This document shows, piece after piece, positions 5,377-21,969 of a DNA stretch of 64,000 bases. The translations under genes were made by a program, and so were the position numbers. The DNA comes from Pseudooceanicola sp. HF7. Its GTDB lineage: Bacteria > Pseudomonadota > Alphaproteobacteria > Rhodobacterales > Rhodobacteraceae. The first letter of the stretch is position 1. Every line of letters starts with the position of its first letter. The stretch covers positions 1 to 64,000 of the forward strand of contig NZ_JAATOW010000018.1 of assembly GCF_011806405.1 (NCBI RefSeq), written 5' to 3'. A model generated the notes under the pieces. The model searched no databases, had not been told where the DNA came from, and saw nothing but the letters and a program-made list of their open reading frames with translations.

Positions 5377-6003
5377 TCAGCGGTAGCTGGCGATGAAATC
5401 CTCTATGCTCATGGCGCGGATGTCCGGCAGGGCGGCCTGGTAGTCCTCTCTTGGCCAGTCCCAGACGGCGATCTGCATCAGCTCTTCCGCCTGGGCTTCG
5501 CTGAAGCGGCGCCGGATCAGACGGGCCGGAACGCCGCCGACCACCGTGTAGGGGGCGACATCGCGGGTCACGACGGCCCCCGCGCCCACCACCGCGCCGG
5601 TGCCGATCCGCACCCCCGCCGTTACCGTCACCCCGTGGCCGATCCAGACATCATGGCCAATGGTGACGTGATCCGCCTTGCGCCAGTCGAAGAAGTCATG
5701 GTCATCCGGCCCCAGCCCGTAGGCCTGCGAGCGATAGACCGAATGGTGCTGGACCGCGCGCCAGGTGGGGTGATTGCCGGGATTGATCCGGGTGGCATTG
5801 GCGATGGAGCACATCTTGCCGATGCTGGTCCAGACCACGTGGCAATCCTGGGTGATATAGGACCAGTCGCCCATGGTGCTTTCGCGCATGACCGTGCCGC
5901 GCCCCACCTCTGTCCAGGCGCCAAGGGTGCAATCCTTGACCCGGGCCTCTGGGTGGATGGTGGGGGACGGGGACAGGGCCGCCTTGTCGCCCGCGCCGCT
6001 CAT
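5377..6003 (-). CDS. Phosphonate-associated hexapeptide-repeat transferase
   Basis: A 208-aa left-handed beta-helix acyltransferase-like protein. Hexapeptide repeats run from about residue 15 ([14 protein letters not shown]) through [20 protein letters not shown] and [19 protein letters not shown] to PARLIRRRF. It matches the family of hexapeptide transferases that accompany phosphonate operons (TIGR03308 type), whose reaction is not settled; acetylation of an aminoalkyl-phosphonate is one suggestion. The ATG at 6003 follows an ACAGGTG ribosome-binding-like sequence. A TTG at 6063, inside the end of the permease gene, would add 20 residues. It is the last gene of the phnCDEE unit. Confidence 0.75.
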
Positions 6004-6052
6004 GCGGGCACCTGTGTCACGGCCTGGCCGGGGATGAGGGGGAAAAGGGCGT

Positions 6053-6964
6053 TCATTTCGCAAGCTCCGATGTGCCGATCAGCCGGGCCCGGATCAGGCC
6101 GGACAGCCAATCGATGATGTAGACCATGGCGATGATCAGGAAGATGATCGACCAGGCCTCGTCCCACTTGTAGGCGCTGATGCGATCCGACAGCAGGAAG
6201 CCGATGCCCCCCGCCCCGACAATGCCCAGGATGGTGCCCGAGCGGACGTTGGATTCGAAATTGTAGAGCAGGATGGACAGGATCACCGGGTTCACCTGCG
6301 GCGCGATGGCGAAGCGGATCTGCTGAAGGCGCGATCCACCAGAGGCCTTGACCCCGTCGATGGGGCGTTCCGAGGTGTTCTCAAGCGCCTCGGAGAAGAG
6401 CTTTGCGAAGGTGCCCACCTCTGACACGGCGATGGCCAGGATGCCGGGCAGCGGCCCCAGCCCGAAGGCGCGAATGAAGATCAGCGCGAGGATCAGCGTT
6501 TCAAAGGCCCGGATCAGGTCGAAGCCGCGCCGGACCCCCAGCCGCAGAAAGCTGAGCCGGTTGATGTTGCGCGCGCCGAGGAAGGACAGCGGATAGGCCA
6601 CGATCGCCCCCAGCAGCGTGCCCAGGAAGGCAATGGCAAGGGTTTCGCCCAGGCCCTTAAGGATCTCGGAGAACTCCGCCCAGCTGGTCCAGACATGGGG
6701 CGGGAACATGAAGCTGAGCACCCGGCCCAGCCGTCCCATCCCCTCTGCGATGCGGGCCGGGGTGATGTTGAAATCGTAGATGCACCAGGCCAGCAGCGCC
6801 AGGAAAAGCCCCCAGAGCACCCCGCGGCGCAGGCGTTGGGACAGGGGCGCGCCGAAGCCCCCCGGCAGGCGGGCGCGGGCGGCGGCGATCCGTTCGGCGG
6901 TCATGGGTGGGGCGGCGTGGCCCCGGGGGGCGGGCTTGGCGGAGGTGGTGGATGTGGCGGGCAT
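6053..6964 (-). CDS. phnE: Phosphonate ABC transporter permease PhnE (second copy)
   Basis: A 303-aa inner-membrane permease of the PhnE family. Hydrophobic segments include [40 protein letters not shown] and [19 protein letters not shown]. The cytoplasmic coupling loop ([18 protein letters not shown]) and [17 protein letters not shown] are characteristic. It works with the adjacent PhnE, PhnD and PhnC to import phosphonates or related oxyanions. The two permeases follow each other (62-nt gap) and probably form a heterodimer, as in other alphaproteobacteria. The first ~40 residues are a Pro/Ala-rich cytoplasmic extension. Confidence 0.9.
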
Positions 6965-7026: not shown

Positions 7027-7995
7027 TCAGATCACCTGGGCGCGCGCATCGCGGCGGCTCTGGTCCAGGTCCATCCCGATGATGCGGTGGCGCAGCTTTT
7101 CAGAGCCGTAGTCGATCAGGGCGACGGTGGCGAAGATGATCAGGAAGAGCGCCGAGAGGTCGGTGTATTCCTGGAAGGACATGGCGGTGCGGAACTCCTG
7201 CCCCAGCCCGCCGGCGCCGACGTAGCCGATGATCGAGGAAGAGCGCACGTTGATCTCGAAGCGCAGCAGCGTGTAGCTGACGATATTGGGCAGCACCTGG
7301 GGCACGGCGCCGTAGCGGATCTGGTCGAACCAGGTGCCCCCGGCGGCCCGGACCCCTTCCAGGGGGCGCATGTCGATATTCTCGTTCACCTCGGAATAGA
7401 GCTTGCCGAGCGCGCCGCAGGCATGCAGCCCGATGGCCAGCACCCCGGCCATGGGGCCGACGCCGAAGCAGAAGACGAAGATCAGCGCCCAGACCAGTTC
7501 CGGCACGGTGCGCGCGACCTCAAGGTAGCGGCGGGTGAGCCAGAGCCCCCAGCGGTTGGGCGCCAGGTTGCGGGCGGCCGGGAAAGACAGAAGGAAGCCG
7601 CCCGCCACGCCCAGGGTGGTGGCCAGGAAGGCGATCAGGATGGTTTGAAAGAGCAGCTTCAGCCAGATCTTCCAGCGCCAGAACCAGTTGGCCAGGTCCG
7701 CGCCCAGGCTGTCCCAGTGCAGCGCCGGCAGCGTCTTTTCGATGTATTCGCCGAGGCGGGGCAGACCCGCCGGCAGGATCCAGCGCCAGTCGCGCGAGCC
7801 ATCCGGCAGGGTGACCTGGGTCACCTTGAAGAAATCCCCCGCCCAGGAGGTCAGCGCGAAGAGCACCAGGAAGATCGCCGTGCCGACCACCCAGCCGATG
7901 CGGGCGCGACGGCGGCGGGCGGCATAGGCGTGCTCGAAGGCGCGCATGGGATCGCCCGGGCCGGCAGGCAGCGCGGGATCGGCGGTGGCGGTCAT
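7027..7995 (-). CDS. phnE: Phosphonate ABC transporter permease PhnE (first copy)
   Basis: A 322-aa permease homologous to its downstream neighbour. A first membrane span lies at about residues 35-55 (GWVVGTAIFLVLFALTSWAG). The coupling loop reads NENIDMRPLEGVRAAGGTWF, and SSSIIGYVGAGGLGQEF precedes a final membrane pair. It starts 81 nt downstream of phnD, after a strong intercistronic hairpin. It belongs to the transport unit phnC-phnD-phnE-phnE-transferase, preceded by a predicted PhnF operator at 9922. Confidence 0.9.
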   Translation of the reverse strand: MTATADPALPAGPGDPMRAFEHAYAARRRRARIGWVVGTAIFLVLFALTSWAGDFFKVTQVTLPDGSRDWRWILPAGLPRLGEYIEKTLPALHWDSLGADLANWFWRWKIWLKLLFQTILIAFLATTLGVAGGFLLSFPAARNLAPNRWGLWLTRRYLEVARTVPELVWALIFVFCFGVGPMAGVLAIGLHACGALGKLYSEVNENIDMRPLEGVRAAGGTWFDQIRYGAVPQVLPNIVSYTLLRFEINVRSSSIIGYVGAGGLGQEFRTAMSFQEYTDLSALFLIIFATVALIDYGSEKLRHRIIGMDLDQSRRDARAQVI

Positions 7996-8076: not shown

Positions 8077-8997
8077 TCAGGAGCCGGAGCGGCGCTGATC
8101 CTTGATCCACTGGCGCATGTCGACGATCCACTGGTAGCGATCGCTGTCCACGCGGGTGAAGCCGACCTCGGGATTGGCATCTTCGGGATTGAAGGAGGAA
8201 TAGAGCTTGTAGCCCTCCGGATCGTCCTGCGGGAAGGCCTCGATCGCGGCGGTGACGGCTTCGATCATCTCGGGGGGCAGGTTCTTGCGGAAGGTCCAGG
8301 GGCCGGAGGTGATCTCGGGGCTTTCCCAGATCTTGCAGATCACGCCGGGCTCGATCATGCCCTTGTCTTCCATGCGCTGGTAGATGCCGCTGACATCGTT
8401 GTCCTGGTAGGTGGAGGCCGTGTCGAAGGTGCCGTTGACCACGCCAGTCACATCCGCCTCGTGAGAGCCGCCGAATGTCACCGTGCCGAAGTACTCCTCG
8501 GGCTTGAAGCCCATGACCTTGACCATGTTGAAATAGGGCACGGCATAGCCGGAGGTGCTGTCGGGATCGGCGAAGGCATGGACCTTGCCCTTTGCGTCCT
8601 CAAGCGAGGTGATGCCGCTGTCGCAGCGGGTCACGACGATGGAGCGGTAACCGGTGTTGCCGTCCTTCTTCATGGCCGTCAGCGTCGGGACGACCCCGCC
8701 ATCGGTCGCGGTATAGGCCGCTGCATAGGAGGAAGAGCCAAGGCGGGCCACTTCGATCTGGTTGGCGGCCACGGCCTGGATCACGCCGTCGTAGTTGCCG
8801 GCGGTGAAGATCTCCACCTCGACGCCAAGGGCCTCTTCCAGGTAGAGGCGCAGCGGTTCGTTGCGCATCAGGCGGTCTTTCTCGTTCTCACCCGACAGGA
8901 TGCCGAACTTGATGACCTGGTAATCGTCCTTCCAGCCTTCGGCCAGGGCGGGTGCGGCGACAAGCGCGAGCAGCGCGGTGGCAGTGACGAAACGCAT
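8077..8997 (-). CDS. phnD: Phosphonate ABC transporter substrate-binding protein PhnD
   Basis: A 306-aa periplasmic binding protein. A Sec signal peptide ends at about residue 19 (LLALVAAPALA). The mature part has PhnD hallmarks: IKFGILSGENEKDRLMRNEP, YDGVIQAVAANQIEVARLGS, and the anion-site region ADPDSTSGYAVPYF around residues 145-158. It delivers phosphonate or a related oxyanion to PhnC-PhnE. It lies 65 nt downstream of phnC in this gene order. It is only distantly similar to the second PhnD encoded at 16727, so the two systems probably have different ligands. Confidence 0.9.
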   Translation of the reverse strand: MRFVTATALLALVAAPALAEGWKDDYQVIKFGILSGENEKDRLMRNEPLRLYLEEALGVEVEIFTAGNYDGVIQAVAANQIEVARLGSSSYAAAYTATDGGVVPTLTAMKKDGNTGYRSIVVTRCDSGITSLEDAKGKVHAFADPDSTSGYAVPYFNMVKVMGFKPEEYFGTVTFGGSHEADVTGVVNGTFDTASTYQDNDVSGIYQRMEDKGMIEPGVICKIWESPEITSGPWTFRKNLPPEMIEAVTAAIEAFPQDDPEGYKLYSSFNPEDANPEVGFTRVDSDRYQWIVDMRQWIKDQRRSGS

Positions 8998-9062: not shown

Positions 9063-9878
9063 TCAGGCCTGTTCGGTGACCCGGCCCGTGGCCCGGGCGG
9101 TGGTGGAAGTGACGGCCTCGTTGAACTCTGCCAGCCCGTCCAGGCCGTAGATGTCGCGCACCACGTCATCGGTCAGCTGGAACGGCGTGCCGTCGAACAT
9201 CACCCGGCCCGCGCGCATGGCGATGATGCGGTCGCAATAGGCGCGCGCCGTGTCCAGCGTGTGCAGGTTGACCAGCACGGTCAGCCCGTCTTCGCGGTTG
9301 ATCTGCCGCAGCCCGTCCATCACCCGAGAGGCATTGGCAGGATCGAGGCTGGCGATGGGTTCATCGGCCAGCATGATCCGGGGGCGCTGCACCAGCGCCT
9401 TGGCGATGGCCACGCGCTGCTGCTGCCCGCCAGAGAGCGTGCCGGCCCGTTGCAGGGCCTGGGGCAGCAGGTCCAGCCGGTCCAGCGCCTCGATCGCCAT
9501 GGCGCGTTCGGCATCGCTGAAGCGCATCGCCATGGAGGACAGGAACCCGTGGTCCGCCAGCCGCCCGATCAGCACGTTGGTCAGCACGTCAAGCCGGTCC
9601 ACCAGGTTGAACTGCTGGAAGATCATCGCGCAGTCGCGCCGCCAGTTGCGCAGCGCGCGCCCCCGGAAGGCGCTGACCTCTGCCCCGTCGAAGAAGATCG
9701 CTCCGGAGGTCGGTTCGACCAGCCGGTTGATCAGCCGCAGCATGGTGGATTTGCCCGCGCCGGAGCGCCCGATGACGCCGACGAATTCGCCGGGCTGGAT
9801 ATCCAGCGTGGCCTTGTCGACGGCGGTCGTGGCACCGAATTGTCGGGTCACGCTCCGAAGGCTGAGGGTCGCGGTCAT
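9063..9878 (-). CDS. phnC: Phosphonate ABC transporter ATP-binding protein PhnC
   Basis: A 271-aa ABC ATPase. Walker A is GRSGAGKST, the Q-loop is [15 protein letters not shown], the signature is [15 protein letters not shown] and Walker B is [13 protein letters not shown], all as in PhnC. The ATG at 9878 is chosen over an upstream in-frame start at 9914, because the family begins close to [13 protein letters not shown]. It is the first gene of the phnCDEE-transferase unit. A predicted PhnF operator lies 43 nt upstream of the start. Confidence 0.9.
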
Positions 9879-9921
9879 GGCGCTGTCTCTCCTTGCGATC
9901 AAACGGGCGATCAACCGGGTG

Positions 9922-10112: not shown

Positions 10113-11285
10113 TCAGGCCACGGTGCGCAGCGCGGCGCCTGCGCCCTGAAGCGTGCCGTTGGCATAGGCGGTTTCGCCCTGAACCAGCGTCAGCGCCACC
10201 CGGTCGGCGGCATCGACCACCACCAGGTCGGCGCGTTTGCCCGCCACCAGCGCGCCGCGATCTTCCAGGCCCAGGGCGCGGGCCGGGTTCACCGTGGCCA
10301 GCCGCGCGGCCCCGGCCAGCCCGTCCGGATCGTTTTGGGCCAGCGCGCGGATCGCGGGCAGGAGCGCGGCCGGGTGGTAATCCGCCGCCAGGATCGACAG
10401 CCGCCCCGCCGCATGGGCCTCTCGCGCCGAAAGGTTGCCCGAGTAGCTTTGCCCACGCATGGCATTGGGCGCGCCCATGGCGGTCATCATGCCGGCGGCC
10501 ACCGCGGCCTCTGCCGCCTCCATCGTGACGGGGAATTCCGCGATCACCGCGCCCAGGTCGGCCATCAGGCGCGCCTTGTCCGCGGTATCGTCGTCGTGGC
10601 TGGCGATGGCCACGCCATGGGCCCGGCACAGGCGCGCCACTTCCTGGATATTGGCCAGCAGCTGTTCCTGCGGGCGGGCGCGTTCGGCCATGGTATCGGC
10701 CACAAGCTTGCGCGCGTCGCTTTCGGTGATGCCGTTCTGCGCCGCCTTGTTGCGGATGTGGACCTCCAGGTTGCGATATTGCCCCTGCCCCGGCGTGTGA
10801 TCCATCAGCGACACCAGGTCCACCTGCGCATCCGCGAGAAGCTGCGCCAGCACGCCCACCGCATTGTCGAAGGTGATGTCGAAGCGGGCATGGATGCGGT
10901 GATCGACCCGGCAGGCGGCGCGCGCGTCATGCAGGGCGCGGATCACTTCGGAGGTATGTTCGTAAGAGCGCCTTTCGCCCTGCGCCACCCCGCGCGAGAA
11001 GGAGACCGAGGCATAGGCCGTGGTCACGCCGCTGGCCGCCAGCCGGGCATCCAGCGCGTTCAGCGCCACCGGCATGGGGAAATGCACGTTCGCGCGCGGC
11101 TCAAGCTCCTGTTCGATCATGTCGCCATGCATGTCGATGAAGCCGGCAAAGATGGTATGGCCCGCGCCCTTGAGCCCGCCGGGCACCGGGTGATCGGTGA
11201 TCTCCGCGATGCGGCCCTCTTCGATGCGCAAGGAGCCGCGCGTGACGGCATCGGGCAGGACTAGGGTGAAGTCAGACAACCACAT
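10113..11285 (-). CDS. phnM: PhnM, ribose 1-phosphonate 5-triphosphate diphosphatase
   Basis: A 390-aa metal-dependent amidohydrolase of the PhnM family, which removes pyrophosphate from the 5-triphosphate of the ribose-phosphonate intermediate in the C-P lyase pathway. Visible family motifs are GFIDMHGD (metal-binding His-x-Asp), VSLMDHTPGQGQ, ASHDDDT, GAPNAMRGQSYSGN and LAADYHP. Its start overlaps the phnL stop region by 14 nt. In many alphaproteobacterial operons phnN lies near here; no phnN is present in this window. A second PhnM paralog is encoded at 19904. Confidence 0.88.
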   Translation of the reverse strand: MWLSDFTLVLPDAVTRGSLRIEEGRIAEITDHPVPGGLKGAGHTIFAGFIDMHGDMIEQELEPRANVHFPMPVALNALDARLAASGVTTAYASVSFSRGVAQGERRSYEHTSEVIRALHDARAACRVDHRIHARFDITFDNAVGVLAQLLADAQVDLVSLMDHTPGQGQYRNLEVHIRNKAAQNGITESDARKLVADTMAERARPQEQLLANIQEVARLCRAHGVAIASHDDDTADKARLMADLGAVIAEFPVTMEAAEAAVAAGMMTAMGAPNAMRGQSYSGNLSAREAHAAGRLSILAADYHPAALLPAIRALAQNDPDGLAGAARLATVNPARALGLEDRGALVAGKRADLVVVDAADRVALTLVQGETAYANGTLQGAGAALRTVA

Positions 11286-11991
11286 CGGTGCGGGTCTCCT
11301 CTTGGGGGGCGTCGGGGGTCAGGTCGATCTCGCGGTCGATCAGGGTGGCCACGTCGCCGGGGTGGTGAAAGACGCCGATCATGGCGGTGCCGCTGGCCTT
11401 GAGCTCTGCCAGCCGGTCGATCAGCGCGGCCCGGGCAGAGGCATCCAGGGAGGCCGTGGGTTCATCCAGCAGCAGCAGCCGTTGCGGCAGGATCAGCGCG
11501 CGGGCCAGGTTCACCTTTTGCTGCTCACCGCCGGAGAAGGTCGTGGGATAAGCGGGCCAGAGCGTGCGCTTGACCCCGAAGGCCGCCAGCCAGTGGCGCG
11601 CCTGCTCCAGCGCCTCGGCCGGGTCCCGGCCGGCCTGACGCAGGGGTTCGGCCACCAGCTCCTCTGCGCTGACGCGGGGGCGCGCGCTGAGGAACTGAGT
11701 GACAAAGCCGATCTCCGTACGGCGCAGCAGTGTCACGTCCACGTCCGCGGCGCGGGCCAGGTCGATCACCCCGTGCGAGGAATGGAACAGGATCTGCCCC
11801 GATTGCGCCAGGTAGCTGCGGTAGAGCGTGCGCAGCAGGGTGGATTTGCCCGCGCCGTTGCGCCCCTTGAGCAGCAGGAATTCCCCCGCCGAGAGGGTCA
11901 GGGAGATCTCGGAGAAGGCCGCCATATGGGTGGCCAGGTGGTGCATCTGGAAGCCCTTGGACAGGCCGCGCACGTCAAGGATACATGTCAT
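11272..11991 (-). CDS. phnL: C-P lyase ABC-type subunit PhnL
   Basis: A 239-aa ABC-class ATPase of the PhnL family. It has Walker A KGRNGAGKST, WVSQFL-like FVTQFLSARPRVSA, signature TFSGGEQQKVNLARAL and Walker B LLLLDEPTASLD. In E. coli PhnK and PhnL form a stacked ABC pair on the PhnGHIJ core and act on the complex rather than in transport. It overlaps phnK by 4 nt and phnM by 14 nt, so it is translationally coupled. Confidence 0.88.
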   Translation of the reverse strand: MTCILDVRGLSKGFQMHHLATHMAAFSEISLTLSAGEFLLLKGRNGAGKSTLLRTLYRSYLAQSGQILFHSSHGVIDLARAADVDVTLLRRTEIGFVTQFLSARPRVSAEELVAEPLRQAGRDPAEALEQARHWLAAFGVKRTLWPAYPTTFSGGEQQKVNLARALILPQRLLLLDEPTASLDASARAALIDRLAELKASGTAMIGVFHHPGDVATLIDREIDLTPDAPQEETRTDVVV

Positions 11992-12785
11992 AGCTTCGCG
12001 TGAACCAATTGTTGCGTATAGGCGTGTTGCGGATCCTGGAAGACCTGGTCGGCCAGACCGGCCTCGACCACCTCTCCGCGGCGCATGACCATGACGCGAT
12101 CCGCCAGGGTGCGGATGACGCCAAGGTCGTGGCTGACGATGACCATGGTGATCCGGCGATCCTGCTGCAGGCGCTTGAGCGTGTCCAGCACCAGCGCCTG
12201 GACAGAGACATCAAGCCCCGTCGTCGGCTCATCCAGCAGCAGAAGCGCGGGTTCCAGCGCGATGGCCTTGGCCAGTTGCACGCGCTGCTGCATGCCGCCC
12301 GAAAGCTCCTCGGGCGGGGCATCCATGCGGGCCAGCGGAAACTCCGAGGCATCCAGCGCGCCGCGGGCCTTGTGGCGCAGCACGCCGAAGCGGCGTTCGC
12401 CGGCGATCAGCAGGCGTTCGGCCACGTTGCCCGAAGAGGAATGGCGCATCAGCAGGCCCAGGTGTGGGTTCTGGTAGACGATGCCGATCCGCGTGGCGCA
12501 GAGCATCCGGCGGGCAAAGCGATCCAGATCGAAAAGGTTGCCCTGCACGTCGGGCAGATCCAGCGTGTAGCTGCCCCGGTCCGGCGTTTCCTCAAGGTTG
12601 AGGCAGCGCAGGAAGGTCGATTTGCCCGACCCGCTTTCGCCCACGATGCCCAGCACCTCGCCCGGGTAGACCGTGGCAGAGACATCGCGCAGCGCCGGCA
12701 CGTCGCCATAATTCAGCGACAGGCCCTGCGCCGTCAGCAGCGGGCGGGCGGTGACCAGGCGGGGGGCGTCCATCACGGCTGTCAT
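11988..12785 (-). CDS. phnK: C-P lyase ABC-type subunit PhnK
   Basis: A 265-aa ABC ATPase of the PhnK family, related to oligopeptide-transporter ATPases. Walker A is GESGSGKST, the signature is ELSGGMQQRVQLAKAI and Walker B is LLLLDEPTTGLDVSVQ. The tail ends DPQHAYTQQLVHAKL, as expected for PhnK. In E. coli it binds the PhnJ subunits through a conserved interface. It overlaps both phnJ and phnL by 4 nt. About 20 residues precede the ABC domain; an alternative start is Met5. Confidence 0.88.
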   Translation of the reverse strand: MTAVMDAPRLVTARPLLTAQGLSLNYGDVPALRDVSATVYPGEVLGIVGESGSGKSTFLRCLNLEETPDRGSYTLDLPDVQGNLFDLDRFARRMLCATRIGIVYQNPHLGLLMRHSSSGNVAERLLIAGERRFGVLRHKARGALDASEFPLARMDAPPEELSGGMQQRVQLAKAIALEPALLLLDEPTTGLDVSVQALVLDTLKRLQQDRRITMVIVSHDLGVIRTLADRVMVMRRGEVVEAGLADQVFQDPQHAYTQQLVHAKL

Positions 12786-13693
12786 GACATCTCTCCATCT
12801 ACGTACCAGGTGGCGCCGATCCGGGTATCTTCGCCCTCGGCGGCACGGATGGTTTTCACGCCCAGGTCGCTGTCGGAGACCTCGTGCAGAGAGGTGCCAT
12901 CGGCCTGCGGGATCTCGTTCATGAAAAAGCCGCGCGCGCCGGAACGGTGGCAGGTCAGGCCCGCGTGGTCCTCTACCCGGTAGGGCACGTCGTCAAAGAC
13001 CAGCGGTTCGACGCGGGTGAAGGGCGGCACCGCGTGCAGGCGCTTTTCGCGCCCCGCCGACAGCAGGGTCAGGTGGCGGGCCATGTGCAGCTTGGGCACG
13101 TCCCAGCGCGGGATCGGCGAGGGCGTCATCACGTGGCGCCCGTTCACCAGGCTGGGATAGGAGGCCCCCTGCATCACCCGGCCCGAGCGCACGATCTGCT
13201 CGTAAAGCTGCAACCACATGCGCCCGTAATCGGCATCCGCATGCATCTGGCGCGCGATGGACATGTTGGGCTGGACGGAGCGCAGCGGCTCCGGGTTGGG
13301 GACCTGGAGCACAAGCACCTGGTCCTCGCGCAGGCGCTCTTCGGGGATGCGGTGGCGGGACTGGATCAGGTCGGCCTGCAGCGTATCGGTGGTCACCGGC
13401 GCCCCCGACACGCTTGCCAGGAACTTGCGGATCGAGGCGGCGTTGACGCTGTCGTCCGCGCCCTGGTCGATCACCTTGATCCGGGTCCGCGGCGTCACCA
13501 GCGTGCAAGAGACCTGCAGCCCCCCGGTGCCCCAGCCGCGCGCCATGGGCACTTCGCGGCTGGCATAGGGCATCTGGCAGCCGGGCACGGAAATCGCCTT
13601 GAGCATCTTGCGCCGGATCTCGCGCTTGGCCGATCCGTCAAGGAAGCCATAGGCCATGGGCTCCCAATCCTTGGTCAGGGATTGCAGGGTCAT
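12782..13693 (-). CDS. phnJ: PhnJ homolog lacking the canonical C-P lyase cysteines
   Basis: A 303-aa homolog of the radical-SAM C-P lyase subunit PhnJ. The core is well conserved: KAISVPGCQMPYASREVPM, GWGTGG, VIDQGADDSVNAASIR, SRHRIPEERLREDQ, PSPIPRWDVPK and AGREKRLHAVPPFTRVE. Gly38 aligns with the E. coli glycyl-radical residue Gly32. In the C-terminal region E. coli has EPCAICG and VCSDTDYC, but this protein reads LTCHRSG and HEVSDSDLG. Only Cys248 (matching Cys241) remains; Cys244, Cys266 and the catalytic Cys272 are Ser, Val and Gly. Cys39 and Cys63 are the only other cysteines. The frame is intact and coupled to phnI and phnK, so this is not simple decay. Whether it can cleave C-P bonds is open. 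Confidence 0.85.
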   Translation of the reverse strand: MTLQSLTKDWEPMAYGFLDGSAKREIRRKMLKAISVPGCQMPYASREVPMARGWGTGGLQVSCTLVTPRTRIKVIDQGADDSVNAASIRKFLASVSGAPVTTDTLQADLIQSRHRIPEERLREDQVLVLQVPNPEPLRSVQPNMSIARQMHADADYGRMWLQLYEQIVRSGRVMQGASYPSLVNGRHVMTPSPIPRWDVPKLHMARHLTLLSAGREKRLHAVPPFTRVEPLVFDDVPYRVEDHAGLTCHRSGARGFFMNEIPQADGTSLHEVSDSDLGVKTIRAAEGEDTRIGATWYVDGEMS

Positions 13694-14760
13694 TCGGCAG
13701 GCTCCGCTTGCTTTGAGGGGGCCGCCCCGGCGGCGCCCGCGCGGGCATCGCGCATGGCATCCAGGGAGGACTGGAAGGTCACGTAATGGGGCAGCTTGAA
13801 GTGGATGCAGAAGCCCGAGCTTTCCACGCCCTCCGTATGATAGAGGAAGAATTCCTCTTCCGTGGCCGATCCCTTGGGCGCGCCCTTGGCGTTCAGGTCC
13901 AGGGTCGCGGCGGCGATCACCTTGACCTCGTTCCAGCCCAGGGTGGCGGCAAAGCCAAGCCCCAGCGCGCTGCCCTTCTTAGAGACGACCTCGGCCTGGG
14001 AGACCTTGACCCGGCCGGCGCTGAAGACCGTGCCGCGCGGGTGGGTGACGCGCAGATCCGCCTCTGCCAGGCGCAATTCGTTGACCGTCGGGTGGGCCTG
14101 TCCGTAGCCGCGCTGCGCGGCATAGCCCAGGGCCAGCACGCCGCCGGTTTCGGCCCGGGCCAGCGATTGCAGGCTATGGGCGCGCGGGGCAGGAAAGAGC
14201 AGCGGTTCGCGGGTGACATCGGGGATGTCGTTGCCGGTGGTGCTGTCGGCGCGGGGCGCGCTGAGCAAGCCGTTCGCCGCCTGCCAGGCCGCCACCGAGG
14301 GCTGCTGCGCCGGGGCGGGCCGGTCCGCCGGTTCGACCGGCTCGGGCCGGCTGGTCGCGCCCTCAAGCACCTCTGTCGCCAGGATGCGGTGGGCGTAATC
14401 CAGCGTCGGGCCCAGCACCTGACCTCCGGGAATATCCTTGAAGGCGGCAGAAATGCGGCGATGGGTGAACAGGCTTTCCTGGGTCACCGGCGCGGCCACC
14501 GCAAGCCGGGGCTGGGTGGTGCGCCAGGCGCGCAGCAGCAGGATCGCCTCGTAAAGTTCTCCGCCTGTCTGGGCCAGGGCGAGCGCCGCCAGATCCTCGT
14601 CATAAAGAGAGGCCTCGCCCATCACCCGGTCGATCAGATACGGCAGGGCGCGGCGCAGTTCGGCCACGCGTTCGGGCGTGATCGCGCCCATCTCTGCGCG
14701 GAACAGGCGCTGCGACTGTTCGATCGCGCGTTCCCCGCCACGGGTTGCCACATAGGCCAT
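13690..14760 (-). CDS. phnI: C-P lyase core subunit PhnI
   Basis: A 356-aa PhnI homolog, close to the E. coli length of 354. In E. coli PhnI with PhnG, H and L attaches the phosphonate to ribose triphosphate from ATP, displacing adenine. Conserved blocks are ISAAFKDIPGGQVLGPTLDY, AAQRGYGQAHP and CIHFKLPHYVTFQ; the last keeps both His residues of the HLKLPHY metal-site motif near the PhnJ active site. The N-terminus (MAYVATRGGERAI) fits the family. A Pro/Ala-rich stretch at about residues 135-170 replaces part of the E. coli middle region. It overlaps phnH by 1 nt and phnJ by 4 nt. Confidence 0.88.
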   Translation of the reverse strand: MAYVATRGGERAIEQSQRLFRAEMGAITPERVAELRRALPYLIDRVMGEASLYDEDLAALALAQTGGELYEAILLLRAWRTTQPRLAVAAPVTQESLFTHRRISAAFKDIPGGQVLGPTLDYAHRILATEVLEGATSRPEPVEPADRPAPAQQPSVAAWQAANGLLSAPRADSTTGNDIPDVTREPLLFPAPRAHSLQSLARAETGGVLALGYAAQRGYGQAHPTVNELRLAEADLRVTHPRGTVFSAGRVKVSQAEVVSKKGSALGLGFAATLGWNEVKVIAAATLDLNAKGAPKGSATEEEFFLYHTEGVESSGFCIHFKLPHYVTFQSSLDAMRDARAGAAGAAPSKQAEPAE

Positions 14761-15332
14761 CAGAGCACCTCCACGCGGGTTGAACGGGGCAGGCCCAGGA
14801 CGCGTGCGCCATCGGTTAGGAAGACCTCGAACCCCATGGGGTAGCGCATGATCCGGGCGCGGGTCTGCCAGAAGCCCTCCGGCAGGCCGGCGAGCCGCAC
14901 ATCGAGCGTGCCATCGACGCCCGGACCGCTGAGCCGCAGGGGCGCGCCCTGCCCCAGCCGGGCCGGCAGCACCAGGGTTGCGCCGTCTTCGGGGTGCAGG
15001 TCCGATCCCTGGCGCAGGTCCCCCAGCAGGTCGGGCGTGGCAAGGCCGTCAAGGAAGAGGTGATCGGCGGTGCGGGGCGTCCCCGGCGCGGCCCCGCTGC
15101 GCGCCGCGTGGCGGGCGAGCTCAGGGTTTTCGCAATGGACCGTGCATTCCCGGTCGATCAGCGCATCGATCAGCGCCGCATGGGCGGGATGCGCCAGGCC
15201 GGCAGGCAGATCGTCCGGGTCAAAGGGGGGCAGATCGCGCGGCAGGCCGGGACGCGACAGGGCCCACATCAGCGCGTCATAGGTCGCGTTGCAGCGGCTT
15301 TCAAAGGCAGAGGGCTGGGGGACGGCGGGCAT
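14760..15332 (-). CDS. phnH: C-P lyase core subunit PhnH
   Basis: A 190-aa PhnH homolog, a structural dimer-forming subunit of the PhnGHIJ core in E. coli. Family features include the opening FESRCNATYDALMWALSRPG, DRECTVHC and the ending FLTDGARVLGLPRSTRVEVL. It overlaps phnG and phnI by 1 nt each through TGATG junctions, which implies translational coupling and equimolar production. Confidence 0.85.
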   Translation of the reverse strand: MPAVPQPSAFESRCNATYDALMWALSRPGLPRDLPPFDPDDLPAGLAHPAHAALIDALIDRECTVHCENPELARHAARSGAAPGTPRTADHLFLDGLATPDLLGDLRQGSDLHPEDGATLVLPARLGQGAPLRLSGPGVDGTLDVRLAGLPEGFWQTRARIMRYPMGFEVFLTDGARVLGLPRSTRVEVL

Positions 15333-15775
15333 CAGAAGGTCTCCATCTCGACGCGGGTGGCTTCGACCCGGCGCAGCGTCTCGTGATCCTCTGCGGCCTG
15401 GATTGCGGCCTCAGAGGTGATGAAATCGTTGCAGGCCGGGACATTGCGGCCAAGCGCGACGCTCAGGTCGACCAGCGCCATGGCCATCGCCGCCTCAAGA
15501 TCGCGGCCCCGGCGCATCCCGTAGCCCTCAAGACCGTCGCAGGCGATCAGCGCCTCGCTCACCAGCACCTCGCCGAGGTGGAAATGCGTGCCCTCTGCCG
15601 TGTCGCGCATGGGCAGCATCACCAGGCCGGTGCGGTTCTCACGCACCTCGATCCCCTCCAGCGCGGCGATCAGCGGCTCTGCAAAGGCCTTGAGCCGCGC
15701 GGCATCGGCGCGCGCCAGGACCCCCAGCATCTGGTCATGGCCATGATCGGGCAAGGTGCCGATGGTCGGTGTCAT
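15332..15775 (-). CDS. phnG: C-P lyase core subunit PhnG
   Basis: A 147-aa PhnG homolog. The family pattern is recognisable in MLGVLARADAARL, RTGLVMLPMRD, HFHLGEVLVSEA, GYGMRRGRDLEAAMAMALVD and the C-terminal RRVEATRVEMETF. It is clearly diverged from the E. coli form, as is the PhnJ of this operon. In E. coli PhnG joins PhnI in the nucleosidase step. It overlaps phnF by 4 nt. Confidence 0.82.
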   Translation of the reverse strand: MTPTIGTLPDHGHDQMLGVLARADAARLKAFAEPLIAALEGIEVRENRTGLVMLPMRDTAEGTHFHLGEVLVSEALIACDGLEGYGMRRGRDLEAAMAMALVDLSVALGRNVPACNDFITSEAAIQAAEDHETLRRVEATRVEMETF

Positions 15776-16494
15776 GAGTCATCCTCGTCGAAGTTGATAC
15801 TGAATTTCACCCGCGCCGCGGACCAGATCACCTCGCTATGGGCGATCGGGGTGCCGTCGGGCAGCGCATCCACCGCGCGCACCACCATGACCGGCATGTC
15901 CGGGTGCTGTTGCAGCAGGCGCGGTTCCTCGCCGCGCGCCGGGCGGGCGTGGATGCGGGTCTCTGCGCGCAGGTAATCCTGCACGCCGTAGGACTGGTAG
16001 ACCGCCGTGGTCGAGCCCATGGCAAGGCGCCGCTGCGGGTAGTCGGGAAAGCGCGCCGGATCGTGGTAGATCTGGCCGATGTTGACCGGCACCCCATCCG
16101 CCATGGAGCGGCGGCTGGTCGCGAGGACCTCTGCACCCGGGGCAAGCTGCAAGGCCCGGGCGACACGCGGCGGGGCCGGGATGCGGGCATAGTCCAGCGT
16201 TTCGCCGGAGACGGCGATGCCCTTGGGATCGAGGTTGCCACGCAGGCGGGTGCGGCGCTTGATGGCGTAGTCGATCATGGGGCGGGCCTGCACGAAGGTG
16301 CCGCGCCCCTGCTCGACGCTGAGGTATCCGGCCTTGCCCAGCTCCGTCACCGCGCGGCGCACGCTGTGGCGGCCGGCCTGGTAGATCCGGGCCAGCTCTG
16401 GCTCTGTCGGCAGCTTGGTGCCGGGCTCCATCACGCCGTCCATGATGTCCTGCTCAATCAGGGCGCTTATCTCGCGCCAGCGGTCTCTGGTCAT
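15772..16494 (-). CDS. phnF: GntR/UTRA family regulator PhnF
   Basis: A 240-aa GntR-family regulator of the HutC/UTRA type. The N-terminal winged helix contains PTEPELARIYQAGRHSVRRAVTELGKAGYLSVEQGRGTFVQ-type features, and a UTRA ligand domain fills the C-terminal two thirds (YHDPARFPDYPQRR, MPVMVVRAVDALPDGTPIAHSE). It is the first gene of the minus-strand phn unit. A 16-bp palindrome starts 6 nt upstream of its ATG, so autoregulation is likely. No good Shine-Dalgarno sequence separates the palindrome from the ATG, which suggests a very short leader. The ligand is probably a phosphonate or pathway intermediate. Confidence 0.85.
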   Translation of the reverse strand: MTRDRWREISALIEQDIMDGVMEPGTKLPTEPELARIYQAGRHSVRRAVTELGKAGYLSVEQGRGTFVQARPMIDYAIKRRTRLRGNLDPKGIAVSGETLDYARIPAPPRVARALQLAPGAEVLATSRRSMADGVPVNIGQIYHDPARFPDYPQRRLAMGSTTAVYQSYGVQDYLRAETRIHARPARGEEPRLLQQHPDMPVMVVRAVDALPDGTPIAHSEVIWSAARVKFSINFDEDDS

Positions 16495-16726: not shown

Positions 16727-17596
16727 ATGAAGATCAATTCTGTGCTGCTGGGCCTGGGCCTGGCGACATTCACCGCATTCGGCGCCAGCGCCGAAACCTG
16801 GAAACTGGCCGTGACCGACGTCGAGGGCATGGAACGGCTGCAAACCGAATGGGGGCCCTTCAAGGCCGCCCTGGAAGAAGCCACGGGCGATACCTTCGAC
16901 TTCTTCCCGGTCAACTCCCGCACCGCCGCCGCAGAGGCGCTGCGCGGGGAAACCGTGGACCTGGTCGTCTCCGGCCCGGCGGAATACGTGGTCATCAACA
17001 CGCTGACCGAAGCCCGCCCGCTGATCGGCCTGGGCCGCCCGGATTATCACTGCGCGATCATCGTGCGCGCGGACAGCGGCATCAATGTGCCCGCCGACCT
17101 CAAGGGCAAGAAGGTCGCCTTCGGCGACATCGGCTCCACCTCCAACATGCTCTGCCCGATGCAGGTGCTGGCCGATCACGGCATCGACCCGGTCAACGAC
17201 ATCGAGCGCACCCATACCTCGCGCAATATCGCGCATGAGGCGCTCAAGCATGGCGACGTGGATGCCATCGGCTCCAACGCCGGATCCTGGCTGAACGTGC
17301 GCAACGCCGAAGAGGACCTGCCCTACGGGTTCTTCAAGATGATCGCGCGCTCGGGTGATCTGCCCAACGACATGATCATGGTCGGCGCGCATGTCGACAC
17401 GGCCGCCGCCGAGGGCCTGCGCGACGCGATCCTTGAGCACAAGGTGGAGATCATCGCCGGCATCACCGCCCATGAAGAGAACGACAAATACGTCGGCATG
17501 GACCTGGTCGCGATCGAGGACGACGCCTACGATTACGTGCGCTCCATGTATGCCAACGCGGGCTACCCGCAATTCGACAAGTTCATCGGTGAGTGA
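16727..17596 (+). CDS. Second PhnD-like ABC transporter substrate-binding protein
   Basis: A 289-aa periplasmic binding protein of the PhnD/phosphonate-binding family. Signal peptide cleavage is predicted after Ala22 (FTAFGASA). Family features are FFPVNSRTAAAEALRGETVDLV, SGPAEYVV, LKGKKVAFGDIGSTSNMLCP and HGDVDAIGSN. It has little similarity to the PhnD at 8077 outside the fold, so a different ligand is likely. It is the first gene of a six-gene plus-strand operon, with a predicted PhnF operator and a good GGAGG site upstream. Confidence 0.82.
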   Translation: MKINSVLLGLGLATFTAFGASAETWKLAVTDVEGMERLQTEWGPFKAALEEATGDTFDFFPVNSRTAAAEALRGETVDLVVSGPAEYVVINTLTEARPLIGLGRPDYHCAIIVRADSGINVPADLKGKKVAFGDIGSTSNMLCPMQVLADHGIDPVNDIERTHTSRNIAHEALKHGDVDAIGSNAGSWLNVRNAEEDLPYGFFKMIARSGDLPNDMIMVGAHVDTAAAEGLRDAILEHKVEIIAGITAHEENDKYVGMDLVAIEDDAYDYVRSMYANAGYPQFDKFIGE

Positions 17597-18461
17597 CGCG
17601 TCGCTGAAACGGCCCGGCCCGCAACAGCGGGCCGCAGGCCCCGGTCAGGCCGCCCATGCGCCTGACCGGGCGCAGCCTGCGCGGGCGGGCCATGGGACCG
17701 GGGCGCAGGCCGTGCCGGTTCCCGCCATCGATATTGAGGCCCGGCAGGTCGCCAAGCGCTTTGGCGACACGCAGATCTTCAGCGATGTCAGCTTCCGGCT
17801 GGAACGGGGGCGGGCCACCGCCCTTGTGGGCGCCAACGGTGCTGGCAAATCCACCCTGCTGCGCTGCCTGATGGGGCTGATCCCCGTCAGTGGCGGAGAG
17901 GTGCGGCTGTTGCAGCAGACCGCGACCCAGGCCCGGCCCGCCGCGCTGCGCGCCCTGCGGGCCCGGGTCGGGCTGGTGTCGCAGAAGCATAATATCGTGC
18001 CCCGCATGTCGGTGCTGTCCAACGTGCTGCACGGGCTGCTGGGCCAGCAGGGTGGCCCGCGTCACTGGAGCCACGTCCTGGCCCCGGCGCAATCGCGCGC
18101 ACAGGCCATGCAGGCGCTGGAAAAGGTCGGGCTGGCCCACCTGGCCCTGCGTCGGGCGGACCGGCTTTCAGGCGGGCAATCCCAGCGCGTGGCCATCGCC
18201 CGCGCCATCGTTTCCCGCCCCGAGGTGCTTTTCGCCGATGAGCCCTGTGCCTCGCTTGATCCGCAAGCCGGAGAGGACGTGATGGACCTGTTCTTCGACC
18301 TGGCGCGCCGGGACGGGGTAACGGTGGTCTTCACCTCTCACAACATCGATCACGCGCTGCGCTACGGCGACCGGGTGCTGGGGCTGGCCGATGGCCGGAT
18401 GCGCCTGGATGCCACGGCGTCATCGCTGCACGAAAGCGACCTGAGGGGGCTTTATGACTGA
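17589..18461 (+). CDS. Second PhnC-like ABC transporter ATP-binding protein
   Basis: A 290-aa ABC ATPase. Walker A is GANGAGKST, QKHNIVPRMSVLSNVLHGLLG matches the PhnC Q-loop region, the signature is LSGGQSQRVAIARAI and Walker B is VLFADEPCASLDP. The start is taken as the GTG at 17589, overlapping the binding-protein stop by 8 nt. That choice gives a Pro/Ala-rich extension of ~45 residues; a GTG at 17712 would give a 249-aa protein without it. It overlaps the permease gene by 8 nt. Confidence 0.8.
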   Translation: MSDASLKRPGPQQRAAGPGQAAHAPDRAQPARAGHGTGAQAVPVPAIDIEARQVAKRFGDTQIFSDVSFRLERGRATALVGANGAGKSTLLRCLMGLIPVSGGEVRLLQQTATQARPAALRALRARVGLVSQKHNIVPRMSVLSNVLHGLLGQQGGPRHWSHVLAPAQSRAQAMQALEKVGLAHLALRRADRLSGGQSQRVAIARAIVSRPEVLFADEPCASLDPQAGEDVMDLFFDLARRDGVTVVFTSHNIDHALRYGDRVLGLADGRMRLDATASSLHESDLRGLYD

Positions 18462-19260: not shown

Positions 19261-19904
19261 AGACCGATACCGCAGATACCCACTGGAACAGCACCTGGGC
19301 CGGGATCGCCCCGGACAGCAAGTGGCTGAACCCGGAAGAGGACGTGATCGCCTGGGCCCGGGGGCTGGCCCCCGGCGCGCGGATACTGGACCTGGGCGCC
19401 GGGGTCGGGCGCCATGCGCTCTGGCTGGCGGAGCAGGGTTTCAACATGGTCGCGCTGGATGCTGCGCCGGAGGGGCTGGCAGAGATCGCCCGGCGATCTG
19501 ACCGGGTCGAGACGGTGCAGGCGCGCATGGACAGCCTGCCCCTGGCCGATGGGGATTTCGATCACGTGCTGTCCTGGAACGTGATCTACCATGGCGACGA
19601 AGACGTGTTGCTGCGCACCATCGGGGAGATCCGCCGCGTGCTGAAACCGGGGGGCAGCTACCTGGGCACCATGCTGTCGCGCCGCCGCCTGCCCCATGAG
19701 CAGGCGCGCTATCCGGGCCGCGAGATCAGCCGCAACGCCTGGACATTCGAGGCGCCGGGCACGGACAAGATCCACCCGCATTACTTCTGCAGCGCCGCGG
19801 AGCTGCTGGCGCTATTCAGCGGATTTGAATGCCTGGCGCTGGCGGATCGCGAACACGACAGCCCCGGCTCCTGGCACTGGCACCTGACGATGGAGCGGCT
19901 GTGA
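19257..19904 (+). CDS. SAM-dependent methyltransferase of the phnDCE2 operon
   Basis: A 215-aa class I methyltransferase. Motif I is ILDLGAGVGRHALWLA (43-58), the acidic end of strand 2 is ALDAAPEGL (66-74), and LPLADGDFDHVLSWNVIYH (94-112) covers motifs II and III. It belongs to the broad Methyltransf_11/25 group; no specific subfamily can be named from sequence alone. It is coupled to the permease gene (4-nt overlap) and to the PhnM-like gene (TGATG). Within an uptake and PhnM-type hydrolysis operon it probably methylates a phosphonate-derived metabolite or another oxyanion product. This is inference only. Confidence 0.75.
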   Translation: MKTDTADTHWNSTWAGIAPDSKWLNPEEDVIAWARGLAPGARILDLGAGVGRHALWLAEQGFNMVALDAAPEGLAEIARRSDRVETVQARMDSLPLADGDFDHVLSWNVIYHGDEDVLLRTIGEIRRVLKPGGSYLGTMLSRRRLPHEQARYPGREISRNAWTFEAPGTDKIHPHYFCSAAELLALFSGFECLALADREHDSPGSWHWHLTMERL

Positions 19905-21157
19905 TGTTCACCTTTGAAGGCGCTTGCGTCTACCTGCCCGGCGAGATCGCCGAAACCAATGTCACCGTGGAGGCAGGCCGCATCGTTGAGATCGGCGGCC
20001 CCGTGCAGGGCGCGCGGATCGATGCGCGCGGCCGGATCCTGGCCCCGGCCCTGATCGACGTGCACGGCGATGCCTTCGAGCGCCAGCTGATGCCGCGCCC
20101 GGGGGTCTATTTCCCGCTGGAAGCGGCGGTGATCGACACCGATCGCCAGCTGGCCTCCAACGGGATCGCCACGGCCTACCACGCCATCACGCTGGGCTGG
20201 GAACCCGGCCTGCGCGACGTGTCGCGGGGCCAGGAGCTGATCCGCGCGCTGACGCAGATTGCCCCGCGCCTGATGGTGGAGAACCGCGTGCAGCTTCGCT
20301 GGGAAACCTTCGCCTTCGAGGCGCTGGAGGTGATCCGGGAGGCCCTTGAGGGGCCGCTCCTGCCGGCCCTCGCCTTCAACGATCATACCTCCATGACGAT
20401 GCGGGCCTATGACGTGGCGATCCAGGATCGCGGCTTCGAGCTGAGCCCGGATTTCTCCATCGCCGCGCTGGACGATGCGCGGATGAAGAAGCGCACGGCT
20501 TCCAAGGCCCATCGCGCGGGCCTGTCAGAGGAAGCCTACATCAAGCTGCTGGGCCAGGTCTGGGAGCGGCGCGCCGAGGTGCCCGGCAAGATCGCCGAGG
20601 TCGCCGGCATGGGCCATGCGGCGGGCGCGCCGATGCTGTCCCATGACGACACCACCGCCCAGACGCGGGCCTGGTTCCGCGACCGGGGCGCGCGGGTTGC
20701 GGAATTCCCCATGGTGCTTGAGGCCGCCCAGGCCGCGCGCGATGCCGGGGATGCGCTGATCTTCGGCGCACCCAACGCGGCGCGCGGGGGAAGTCACATC
20801 GGCTCTCTTGGCGCCGGGGACATGGTTGAGGCCGGGCTGTGCGATGCGCTGGCCTCTGATTACTTCTACCCGGCGATGCTGGCGGCGGTGGCGCGGCTGG
20901 ACGCGGAGCGGCGCGCCGAACGGCTGGCGCTCTGGCGGCTGGTCTCGGCCGGACCGGCACGCGCCATGAACCTGCACGACCGTGGAGAGATCGCCACCGG
21001 CGCGCGCGCCGACCTGGTGCTGGTGGACTGGCCCGATGGCCATGCCCCCGCGATCACCGGCACCTGGGTCGCCGGGCGGATGGCCTATGGCGGCACGCCC
21101 GCCGGCCATTCCGCATCTGCCTTCCCTGCCCCACATGCCGAAAGGACCCCTGCATGA
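19904..21157 (+). CDS. PhnM-like amidohydrolase (second paralog)
   Basis: A 417-aa amidohydrolase of the PhnM family. Motifs are LIDVHGDAFERQLMPRPGVYFP, LAFNDHTSM, LSHDDTTAQ, GAPNAARGGSHIGS and ASDYFYPAML. It differs from the operon PhnM at 10113 in several family blocks, for example NDHTS in place of MDHTPGQ. It starts at an ATG overlapping the methyltransferase stop by 1 nt and ends with a 4-nt overlap with the next gene. The expected reaction is diphosphate removal from a ribose 5-triphosphate-type intermediate or a related phosphoester. Being separate from the phnG-L genes, it may act on a different product. Confidence 0.78.
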   Translation: MFTFEGACVYLPGEIAETNVTVEAGRIVEIGGPVQGARIDARGRILAPALIDVHGDAFERQLMPRPGVYFPLEAAVIDTDRQLASNGIATAYHAITLGWEPGLRDVSRGQELIRALTQIAPRLMVENRVQLRWETFAFEALEVIREALEGPLLPALAFNDHTSMTMRAYDVAIQDRGFELSPDFSIAALDDARMKKRTASKAHRAGLSEEAYIKLLGQVWERRAEVPGKIAEVAGMGHAAGAPMLSHDDTTAQTRAWFRDRGARVAEFPMVLEAAQAARDAGDALIFGAPNAARGGSHIGSLGAGDMVEAGLCDALASDYFYPAMLAAVARLDAERRAERLALWRLVSAGPARAMNLHDRGEIATGARADLVLVDWPDGHAPAITGTWVAGRMAYGGTPAGHSASAFPAPHAERTPA

Positions 21158-21969
21158 CCCCTCTCAAGATCGGCGCGGCGCTGAGCATTGCCCAGATCGC
21201 CCGACACCGCGACTGGCTGTTTGACCACGGGCGCGACATCGAGCTTCAGGATTTCATGAGCCATGAGTCCCTGACCTCCCAGCGGGCGGAGCGCGTGGCG
21301 GCGGCGCGCGCGGCGCTTGACGGGTTCACCGGGCGGCTGGGCCTTCATGGCCCCTTCGAGGGGCTGGACATCGACAACAAGGACCCGGAGCTGCGCCCGC
21401 TGATCACCGCCCGCTTCCTGGCCGCACTCGAGGTTGCAGAGAGCCTTGGCGCGCGCCAGGTGGTGCTGCATTCGCCCTATACGCCGTGGTACCGCAACAA
21501 CCTGCTGGCCAGCCCGGGCTATGCAGAGACCAAGCTGGCCCGTATCCACGAGGTGCTGGACCCGGTGGTGCGCTCTGCCGCCGACAAGGGCATCACCCTG
21601 GTGATCGAGAACATCCAGGACGTGGATCCCGCCACCCGCCGCGCGATGGTGGACAGTTTCGACAGCGCGGCCATGGCCCTGTCCGTGGACACCGGCCATG
21701 CCCAACTGGCCCGACGGATGTCCGGCGCCCCGCCGGTGGATTACTTCCTGCGCGATGCCGGGGCGCAGCTGGCCCATGTGCATCTGCAGGACGTGGACGG
21801 CCATGCCGATCGCCACTGGCCCCCCGGCGAGGGAGAGATCCAGTGGCCGGCGGTCTTCAGCGCCCTGTCAGAGGCCCCCTCGGCCCCGCACCTGGTGCTG
21901 GAACTGCGCCATCATGACCGCATCCCGCAGGCCTTTGGCTACCTGAAAGGTCTTGGGCTGGTTTGTTGA
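21154..21969 (+). CDS. EndoIV/xylose-isomerase-like TIM-barrel protein
   Basis: A 271-aa TIM-barrel protein of the AP-endonuclease-2/sugar-phosphate isomerase superfamily. Potential metal ligands are His65 (LHGPFEG), His106 (VVLHSPYTPW), Glu152 (LVIENI), Asp179 and His182 (VDTGHA), His208/His210 (HVHLQD) and Glu250 (LVLELR). The set suits a di- or trinuclear metal site able to isomerise sugar phosphates or cleave phosphoesters. It ends the phnDCE2 operon. Because phnP, the cyclic ribose-phosphate phosphodiesterase of the C-P lyase pathway, is not seen here, a role on a ribosyl phosphate is attractive but unproven. Confidence 0.75.
   Translation: MTPLKIGAALSIAQIARHRDWLFDHGRDIELQDFMSHESLTSQRAERVAAARAALDGFTGRLGLHGPFEGLDIDNKDPELRPLITARFLAALEVAESLGARQVVLHSPYTPWYRNNLLASPGYAETKLARIHEVLDPVVRSAADKGITLVIENIQDVDPATRRAMVDSFDSAAMALSVDTGHAQLARRMSGAPPVDYFLRDAGAQLAHVHLQDVDGHADRHWPPGEGEIQWPAVFSALSEAPSAPHLVLELRHHDRIPQAFGYLKGLGLVC

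Follow-up and report, generated by a model that had tools for sequence, protein, structure and literature searches.

A complete phn operon with a Cys-less PhnJ that may belong to a non-radical sister of C-P lyase

The closest described system to the operon studied here is the carbon-phosphorus (C-P) lyase of Escherichia coli. In the E. coli complex, phosphoribosyl cyclic phosphate (PRcP) lies at a zinc site between PhnI and PhnJ, where PhnI provides the ligands His328 and His333 (His219 in the open state), and Arg107, Gln124, His108 and the loop 47-50 of PhnJ also hold the compound (PMC9947105). This PRcP was modelled in a complex prepared without phosphonate, and a side reaction was suggested as its origin (PMC9947105). 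The iron-sulphur (Fe-S) site of PhnJ is about 30 Å from the radical glycine, which in the open state is itself 31 Å from the zinc ion (PMC9947105). Further along the pathway, PhnN phosphorylates ribose bisphosphate (PMC10574752), and the 2H phosphoesterase RcsF has been named the likely PRcP phosphodiesterase (PMC3840354, PMC10574752). Counts of the phnJ gene (K06163) also serve as an indicator of methane release from methylphosphonate (PMC8774927). Here we describe a phnJ gene of Pseudooceanicola sp. HF7, found on a stretch of 64,000 nucleotides (contig NZ_JAATOW010000018.1, positions 1 to 64,000, assembly GCF_011806405.1; hereafter the window), whose product keeps only one of the four C-terminal cysteines of radical C-P lyase PhnJ and probably takes part in a phosphorus reaction other than the known radical one.

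The variant phnJ gene occupies positions 12782-13693 on the minus strand and is an uninterrupted open reading frame (ORF) of 303 amino acids from ATG to TGA, which overlaps both phnI and phnK by 4 bases. Its product matches Pfam PF06007 (PhnJ) with 378.9 bits against a gathering cut-off of 25, and the E. coli PhnJ structures are its sole sequence matches in the PDB (E 2e-77). In the alignment to E. coli PhnJ, Gly32 corresponds to G38, Tyr33 to C39 and Cys241 to C248, and Arg107, His108 and Gln124 are preserved, while Cys244, Cys266 and Cys272 have become Ser, Val and Gly; the translation carries the motifs LTCHRSG and HEVSDSDLG in this region. Cys241 is therefore the only one of the four C-terminal cysteines (241/244/266/272) to remain. 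The protein has three cysteines in total, i.e., Cys39, Cys63 and Cys248, and they form no C-x2-C or C-x5-C motif, not even a shifted one, so that the four-cysteine pattern of a radical C-P lyase PhnJ is lacking and the radical glycine is present. An earlier reading by a model, made from the letters of the window without database searches (the sequence-only reading), had described an intact, tightly coupled gene with these three replacements, these remaining cysteines and a glycine matching Gly32, and had named shifted cysteine motifs as grounds for refutation; alignment, residue table and translation agree with it on every one of these points. With three of the four C-terminal cysteines lost, the known [4Fe-4S]/S-adenosylmethionine/thiyl chemistry has no visible place in the variant.

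The same losses recur widely. A GTDB scan with one genome per species yielded 180 related loci, the best 80 of which were examined. Counts for the variant refer to 101 alignment rows (91 distinct sequences), gene-neighbour counts to 81 distinct long loci, and the canonical comparison set to 21 PhnJ or stretches from carrier genomes. Cys244, Cys266 and Cys272 are absent, and Cys241 is kept, in all 101 rows (91 distinct), while all four cysteines are kept in 21 of 21 canonical PhnJ; chance and sequencing error, the latter a refutation the sequence-only reading had allowed for, are therefore excluded. Variant sequences come from Rhodobacterales, Hyphomicrobiales and Thermus thermophilus. Among 390 Rhodobacterales genomes, 17 hold a PhnJ that shares 76-100% identity with the window protein, while the best matches outside this group reach about 51%; 16 of these 17 also hold canonical PhnJ, the exception being G344. 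In a phylum-wide sample the variant type was found in 5 of 398 genomes, from one class only. The six plasmid records examined with matches above 58% (Haematobacter, Nitratireductor, Mesorhizobium, Microvirga and two of Thermus) all encode the Cys-less form, and one scan of viral contigs gave no relative.

In the same 15 genomes with both types, the median ratio of non-synonymous to synonymous substitution (dN/dS) is 0.083 for variant and 0.078 for canonical phnJ, and 0.157 and 0.156 for the respective C-terminal domains; 80 to 102 of 105 pairs were computable, and the values are rough, as synonymous differences were high (0.6). Variant phnJ is thus under purifying selection, like the canonical copy. 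A decaying pseudogene, or an error of sequencing or assembly, can point to a single carrier with a broken copy, and is rejected, with a virtually negligible chance of being right, by the 91 distinct sequences that share the losses and by dN/dS values as low as those of canonical phnJ. That carrier (G090, L078) has a decayed variant operon in which phnJ is split, phnG, phnH and phnI give only short matches, and phnK, phnL and phnM give none; the transporter genes and the neighbouring cluster persist beside it.

In a maximum-likelihood tree built from the core, with the C-terminal domain excluded, 33 Cys-less rows, including both from Thermus, form one clade with 98/95 support, although bootstrap convergence was incomplete and several of the outgroup rows sit on long branches. 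The other 49 rows, among them Haloarcula and those branching beside the Cys-less clade, keep the cysteines, so a single loss is the simplest history. Moreover, phnGHIJKLM is complete in 81/81 loci. A cysteine-poor clade that always accompanies one type of operon is what the sequence-only reading had anticipated. The C-terminal domain of the clade has conserved motifs of its own, e.g., C-x-R-S-G, MNE, S-D-S and G-x-T-W-Y.

Radical C-P cleavage could still be achieved in another way, through a different cluster or through a glycyl radical installed by canonical PhnJ. Retention of Gly32 (101/101) and of the adjacent Cys39 (98/101) would fit this, yet the sole invariant cysteine of the clade is Cys248 (E. 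coli Cys241), the position of Cys39 holds Tyr in both Thermus sequences, Mesorhizobium AR07, Microvirga VF16 and G504, and carriers that lack canonical PhnJ have no donor for the radical; we consider this explanation quite improbable. A cluster built from Cys39, Cys63 and Cys248 was rejected on similar grounds, with Cys63 found in 3 of 16 rows of a variant alignment and Cys39 replaced by Tyr in Thermus and some rhizobial members. The sequence-only reading had offered either a different enzyme on the C-P lyase scaffold or an alternative cluster site, and only the former is supported.

The residues of the zinc/PRcP site have been maintained. PhnJ Arg107, His108, Gln124 and residues 47-50 are kept in 101/101 rows, PhnI His219 in 100/100, and PhnI His328 and His333 in 99/100, the remaining row being a gap, so that the variant retains the whole PhnJ and PhnI set. 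Changes were found elsewhere in the complex. Canonical PhnG ends in V-[DE]-F-F-T-[ML]-x-R-G followed by 1-3 residues (21/21), whereas variant PhnG is 5 to 6 residues shorter, 86 of 88 distinct rows ending in METF; when the E. coli complex opens, the PhnG tail shifts more than 30 Å into a PhnJ pocket (PMC9947105). A loop of PhnI has 6 to 8 residues in the variant against 13 in the canonical protein (99/100 rows, the other a gap). Three Cys-keeping operons near the clade have the long PhnG tail (L235, L236, L080), and the tail was dropped as a clean clade marker, the Cys-keeping Haloarcula having one of intermediate length; shared descent therefore explains part of the shortening. We infer that PRcP can arise at the zinc site with no radical involved, and that this is the reaction on which the variant depends. 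The separate clade, the loss of three of the four C-terminal cysteines, the retained zinc-site set, the coordinated changes in PhnG and PhnI and the purifying selection together argue for a different enzyme.

The source genome also encodes a canonical PhnJ (467 bits, with CDLCG and VCSDTDFC) on contig C20, surrounded by phnG, H, I, K, L, M and N, and the variant is therefore a second system in the same cell. Such coexistence is common, with intact canonical PhnJ in 72 of the 80 carrier genomes. Among the first 46 it is present in 43 and absent from G344 (99% complete), Paenochrobactrum gallinarii and Haematobacter missouriensis; among 34 more it is intact in 29, split over contigs in 2, broken in 1 and absent from 2 (G812 and G830, which are metagenome-assembled genomes with the variant locus on 4.6- and 8.3-kb contigs). 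This could suggest a reduced scaffold, in which the variant complex would only make ribosyl-phosphonate and the canonical PhnJ of the same cell would cleave it. While the 43 of 46 and the 29 of 34 carriers, with the 2 split copies, are in its favour, this idea has to contend with the carriers without canonical PhnJ (3/46 and 2/34), with phnN beside the variant in the three, and with a C-terminal domain that is under selection and has its own motifs, and we judge it distinctly unlikely. As a separate observation, Rhizobium sp. CG5 (L145) holds a third PhnJ match (375.8 bits, G416:C6:98430-99251) besides the canonical and the variant.

The position of phnN follows the absence of canonical PhnJ. 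The search for phnN covered the first 46 carriers and found the gene in every one (46/46), at most 9 kb from variant phnJ in 3/3 carriers without canonical PhnJ and within 15 kb of it in 0/43 genomes with both types (Fisher p 6.6e-5, from few genomes and with kinship ignored). Among other genomes of the order, phnN occurs in 1 of 40 PhnJ-less and in 10 of 10 canonical-only genomes. It adjoins 5 of 81 variant loci and is not near the other 76, compared with 20 of 21 canonical stretches. These five loci are those of G344, P. gallinarii and H. missouriensis and the plasmids of Mesorhizobium AR07 and Microvirga VF16, and the position of phnN differs among them; in Mesorhizobium AR07 the variant operon contains M-DUF1045-phnN. 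Because phnN adjoins the variant where canonical PhnJ is absent, gene content suggests that a variant working alone tends to have PhnN. DUF1045, which we take to be the RcsF 2H phosphoesterase, was present in all three canonical-less carriers searched and lies near 4 of 81 variant loci, and phnP lies near none (0/81).

The variant operon of the window reads as follows, all on the minus strand:

15772..16494, minus: phnF-type GntR/UTRA regulator, first gene of the operon (Pfam GntR and UTRA, synteny; phnF name by position)
15332..15775, minus: phnG, with the shortened C-terminal tail ending METF (Pfam PhnG 75.4 bits; TIGR03293 82.8 bits, cut-off 89)
14760..15332, minus: phnH (TIGR03292 111.6 bits, cut-off 91.5)
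13690..14760, minus: phnI, with the His328/His333/His219 equivalents kept and loop 258-270 shortened (Pfam PhnI 355.3 bits)
12782..13693, minus: phnJ variant without Cys244/266/272, 303 amino acids (Pfam PhnJ 378.9 bits)
11988..12785, minus: phnK, ATP-binding cassette (ABC) ATPase (best NCBIfam TIGR02323, 229.5 bits, cut-off 302.85)
11272..11991, minus: phnL, ABC ATPase (best NCBIfam TIGR02324, 239.8 bits, cut-off 256.3)
10113..11285, minus: phnM, ribosyl-phosphonate triphosphate diphosphatase family (NF011988 444.5 bits, cut-off 369)
9063..9914, minus: phnC, putative transporter ATPase (syntenic ORF; name from sequence and position)
8077..8997, minus: phnD, binding protein (Pfam Phosphonate-bd 173.8 bits)
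7027..7995, minus: phnE2 permease (syntenic ORF; name by position)
6053..6964, minus: phnE1 permease (syntenic ORF; name by position)
5377..6063, minus: hexapeptide-repeat acyltransferase, phn_thr family (TIGR03308 275.3 bits, cut-off 201.65)

This order, F-G-H-I-J-K-L-M-C-D-E2-E1-acyltransferase, is whole in the window, as it is in 13 of 15 additional loci, and the acyltransferase adjoins 60 of 81 variant loci. PhnH and PhnM reach their NCBIfam equivalog cut-offs; PhnG, PhnK and PhnL fall short of theirs, and the divergence of PhnG claimed by the sequence-only reading is thereby upheld.

We put at about an even chance that the products of this operon form a complete sister of C-P lyase that works without a radical, ribosylating an imported phosphorus compound and freeing its phosphorus at the zinc site in the form of a cyclic ribose phosphate. 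Three parts of this picture are observed, namely the missing radical cysteines, the preserved zinc site and the association with phnN, while the remaining mechanism is what we infer from them. An organophosphorus compound X-PO3 would be imported, PhnGHI (with PhnL) would displace adenine from ATP and place X-PO3 on C1 of the ribose, and PhnM would trim the triphosphate. The ribose 2'-OH, aided by zinc and PhnJ His108, would then attack the phosphorus and expel X without a radical, giving PRcP, which a cyclic phosphodiesterase and PhnN could convert to phosphoribosyl pyrophosphate (PRPP). X would have to be a heterolytic leaving group, e.g., an activated carbon or the alkoxide that a phosphate ester would give, which would exclude methyl, and no methane is expected from methylphosphonate by the variant complex. 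More tentatively, and with somewhat less than an even chance, this may be an unrecognised, widespread route of phosphorus acquisition, in which the C-P lyase machine would have discarded its radical half and, as an ATP-driven ribosyl transferase and zinc-dependent transesterase, would act on P-O (or similar) bonds to yield ribose cyclic phosphate and PRPP.

Two alternatives share parts of this scheme. The variant might cleave the C-P bond of activated phosphonates, e.g., with a carbonyl or other stabilising group beside the carbon, heterolytically and without a radical. The same retained zinc/PRcP site and phnN link would serve such a reaction, which differs from the proposed one in substrate only, and the operon includes a PhnD of the phosphonate type, but no gene to make or modify an activated phosphonate was recognised among the neighbours examined; this is unlikely, though with a real chance of being right. 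PhnI could instead take phosphate as its nucleophile, turning ATP and inorganic phosphate into ribose 1,5-bisphosphate with no P-X cleavage. It would also account for the need for PhnN, but it gives no reason for the conserved PRcP site or for a transporter of the phosphonate type and would probably cost ATP with no gain of phosphorus, which makes it very improbable.

The neighbouring genes were considered as clues to the substrate. A PF00149 calcineurin-like phosphoesterase and a sugar-type ABC transporter precede the variant operon in several Roseobacters; presumably the former is GpdQ-like and the latter Ugp-like. The Thermus HB8 variant cluster includes a sugar-type transporter and a YmdB-like phosphoesterase. 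The possession of an own transporter was dropped as a sign of another substrate, since the ranges of PhnD identity overlap: PhnD from canonical stretches is 34-39% identical to the window PhnD, and some variant loci have PhnD matches as low as 29-36%, so its divergence says little. Many apparently antisense ORFs that came out of the neighbourhood clustering were not used.

A number of points weigh against the proposed non-radical function. Gly32 is retained throughout, and the proposal expects no radical. The phnN argument comes from three genomes, one of known completeness (G344, 99%), and the canonical-less genomes might have lost a canonical operon yet kept its phnN. The presence of DUF1045 was rejected as evidence, being unspecific; 18 of 40 PhnJ-less genomes hold it, so DUF1045 counts by position only. 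The metallophosphodiesterase and sugar-type transporter are a weak clue, PF00149 being near 10 of 81 variant and 0 of 21 canonical loci (p 0.12, not significant against 21 loci). The AlphaFold prediction for variant PhnJ, based on 30 near relatives, had a predicted local distance difference test (pLDDT) score of 55 and was too poor for a fold search. Why ATP should be spent on ribosylating a phosphate ester, rather than a phosphatase used, is unexplained, and no biochemistry of any clade member was found in the literature covered.

Among titles and abstract openings of the open literature searched, no Cys-less PhnJ clade is reported, nor is one mentioned in the parts covered of PMC9947105, PMC5649143, PMC9381506, PMC6852614, PMC11978286, PMC10574752, PMC8774927, PMC3840354 and PMC5529391. 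In the NCBI annotation the variant gene is called C-P lyase PhnJ in 5 of 5 variant records with a gene table, and marker surveys can therefore count it. Many bacteria hold a complete, well-preserved variant machine that may be miscounted as a methane-making gene. Both Marivita genomes were credited with a methane-releasing pathway from their phn genes (PMC8774927). In Marivita sp. SBSPR1 (L114, G820) the variant operon is whole and the Cys-less phnJ is the only intact phnJ in the assembly; the canonical operon (L230 5251-11252) has phnJ in pieces, phnK not found and phnL partial, a break that needs checking as this is a metagenome assembly. Marivita SBSPR2 (L123, G825) has full-length matches to both PhnJ types. 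The clade is also a natural separation of function, with three radical-site cysteines gone and the zinc site kept, and it hints at components with a possible role in the radical step, such as the PhnG tail that is shortened in it. If the P-O route holds, it would show two separable active sites within C-P lyase.

Beside the operon, the window holds a divergent cluster (16727-21969) of a PhnD-like protein, an ABC ATPase, a permease, a methyltransferase, a second PhnM and a TIM barrel, including:

16727..17596, plus: second PhnD-like binding protein (Pfam Phosphonate-bd 141 bits)
19829..21157, plus: second PhnM-like amidohydrolase, start uncertain (NF011987 354.7 bits)
21154..21969, plus: TIM barrel, AP_endonuc_2 (PF01261 110.5 bits)

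The second PhnD-like gene adjoins a minority of variant loci (11/81) and the PF01261 TIM barrel 34 of 81, including that of Thermus HB8. In some genomes, parts of this type of cluster adjoin the canonical operon.

Other phn systems differ from the variant to varying degrees. Both sequence and tree place the phn cluster on pVV8 of T. thermophilus HB8 in the Cys-less clade; it differs in that it has Gly-Tyr rather than Gly-Cys, and the stretch examined contains a LacI-type regulator and a single annotated phnE. The plasmid PhnGHIJKL sets of Labrenzia (L204 7992-8837, on a conjugative plasmid and preceded by an iron-type ABC transporter) and Proteus (L206 2998-3810, on a mobilizable plasmid) likewise have a divergent PhnJ, but it keeps the four cysteines, with Gln for His108 and Val for Thr50, and there is no phnM in the stretches examined. 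The phn operon of Haloarcula halophila (L205 9675-10484) ends with a PF01261 TIM barrel of the same kind and a HAD hydrolase, which possibly stand in for PhnP/PhnN. One Rhodobacterales genome (G279, contig C52; L080, L237) carries a tandem pair of Cys-keeping phn operons that are divergent from each other, one of which has His after Gly32 together with phnP and phnN. The B3TF_MPn_2 operon has been called Rhodobacterales (PMC5649143).

The canonical Rhodobacterales operons (e.g., L001/L079 of the source genome) share genomes and core genes with the variant, as well as the hexapeptide transferase (14/21) and a PhnC-type ATPase (17/21). Their PhnJ is 46-51% identical to the variant and keeps all four cysteines (21/21), and unlike the variant they are accompanied by phnN (20/21) and DUF1045 (18/21). 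With the E. coli C-P lyase, the variant has in common the partner genes, the zinc/PRcP-site residues and Gly32, at about 50% identity; it differs in the loss of Cys244, Cys266 and Cys272, in its shorter PhnG tail and PhnI loop, and in having phnN, DUF1045 and phnP rarely or never nearby (5, 4 and 0 of 81 loci).

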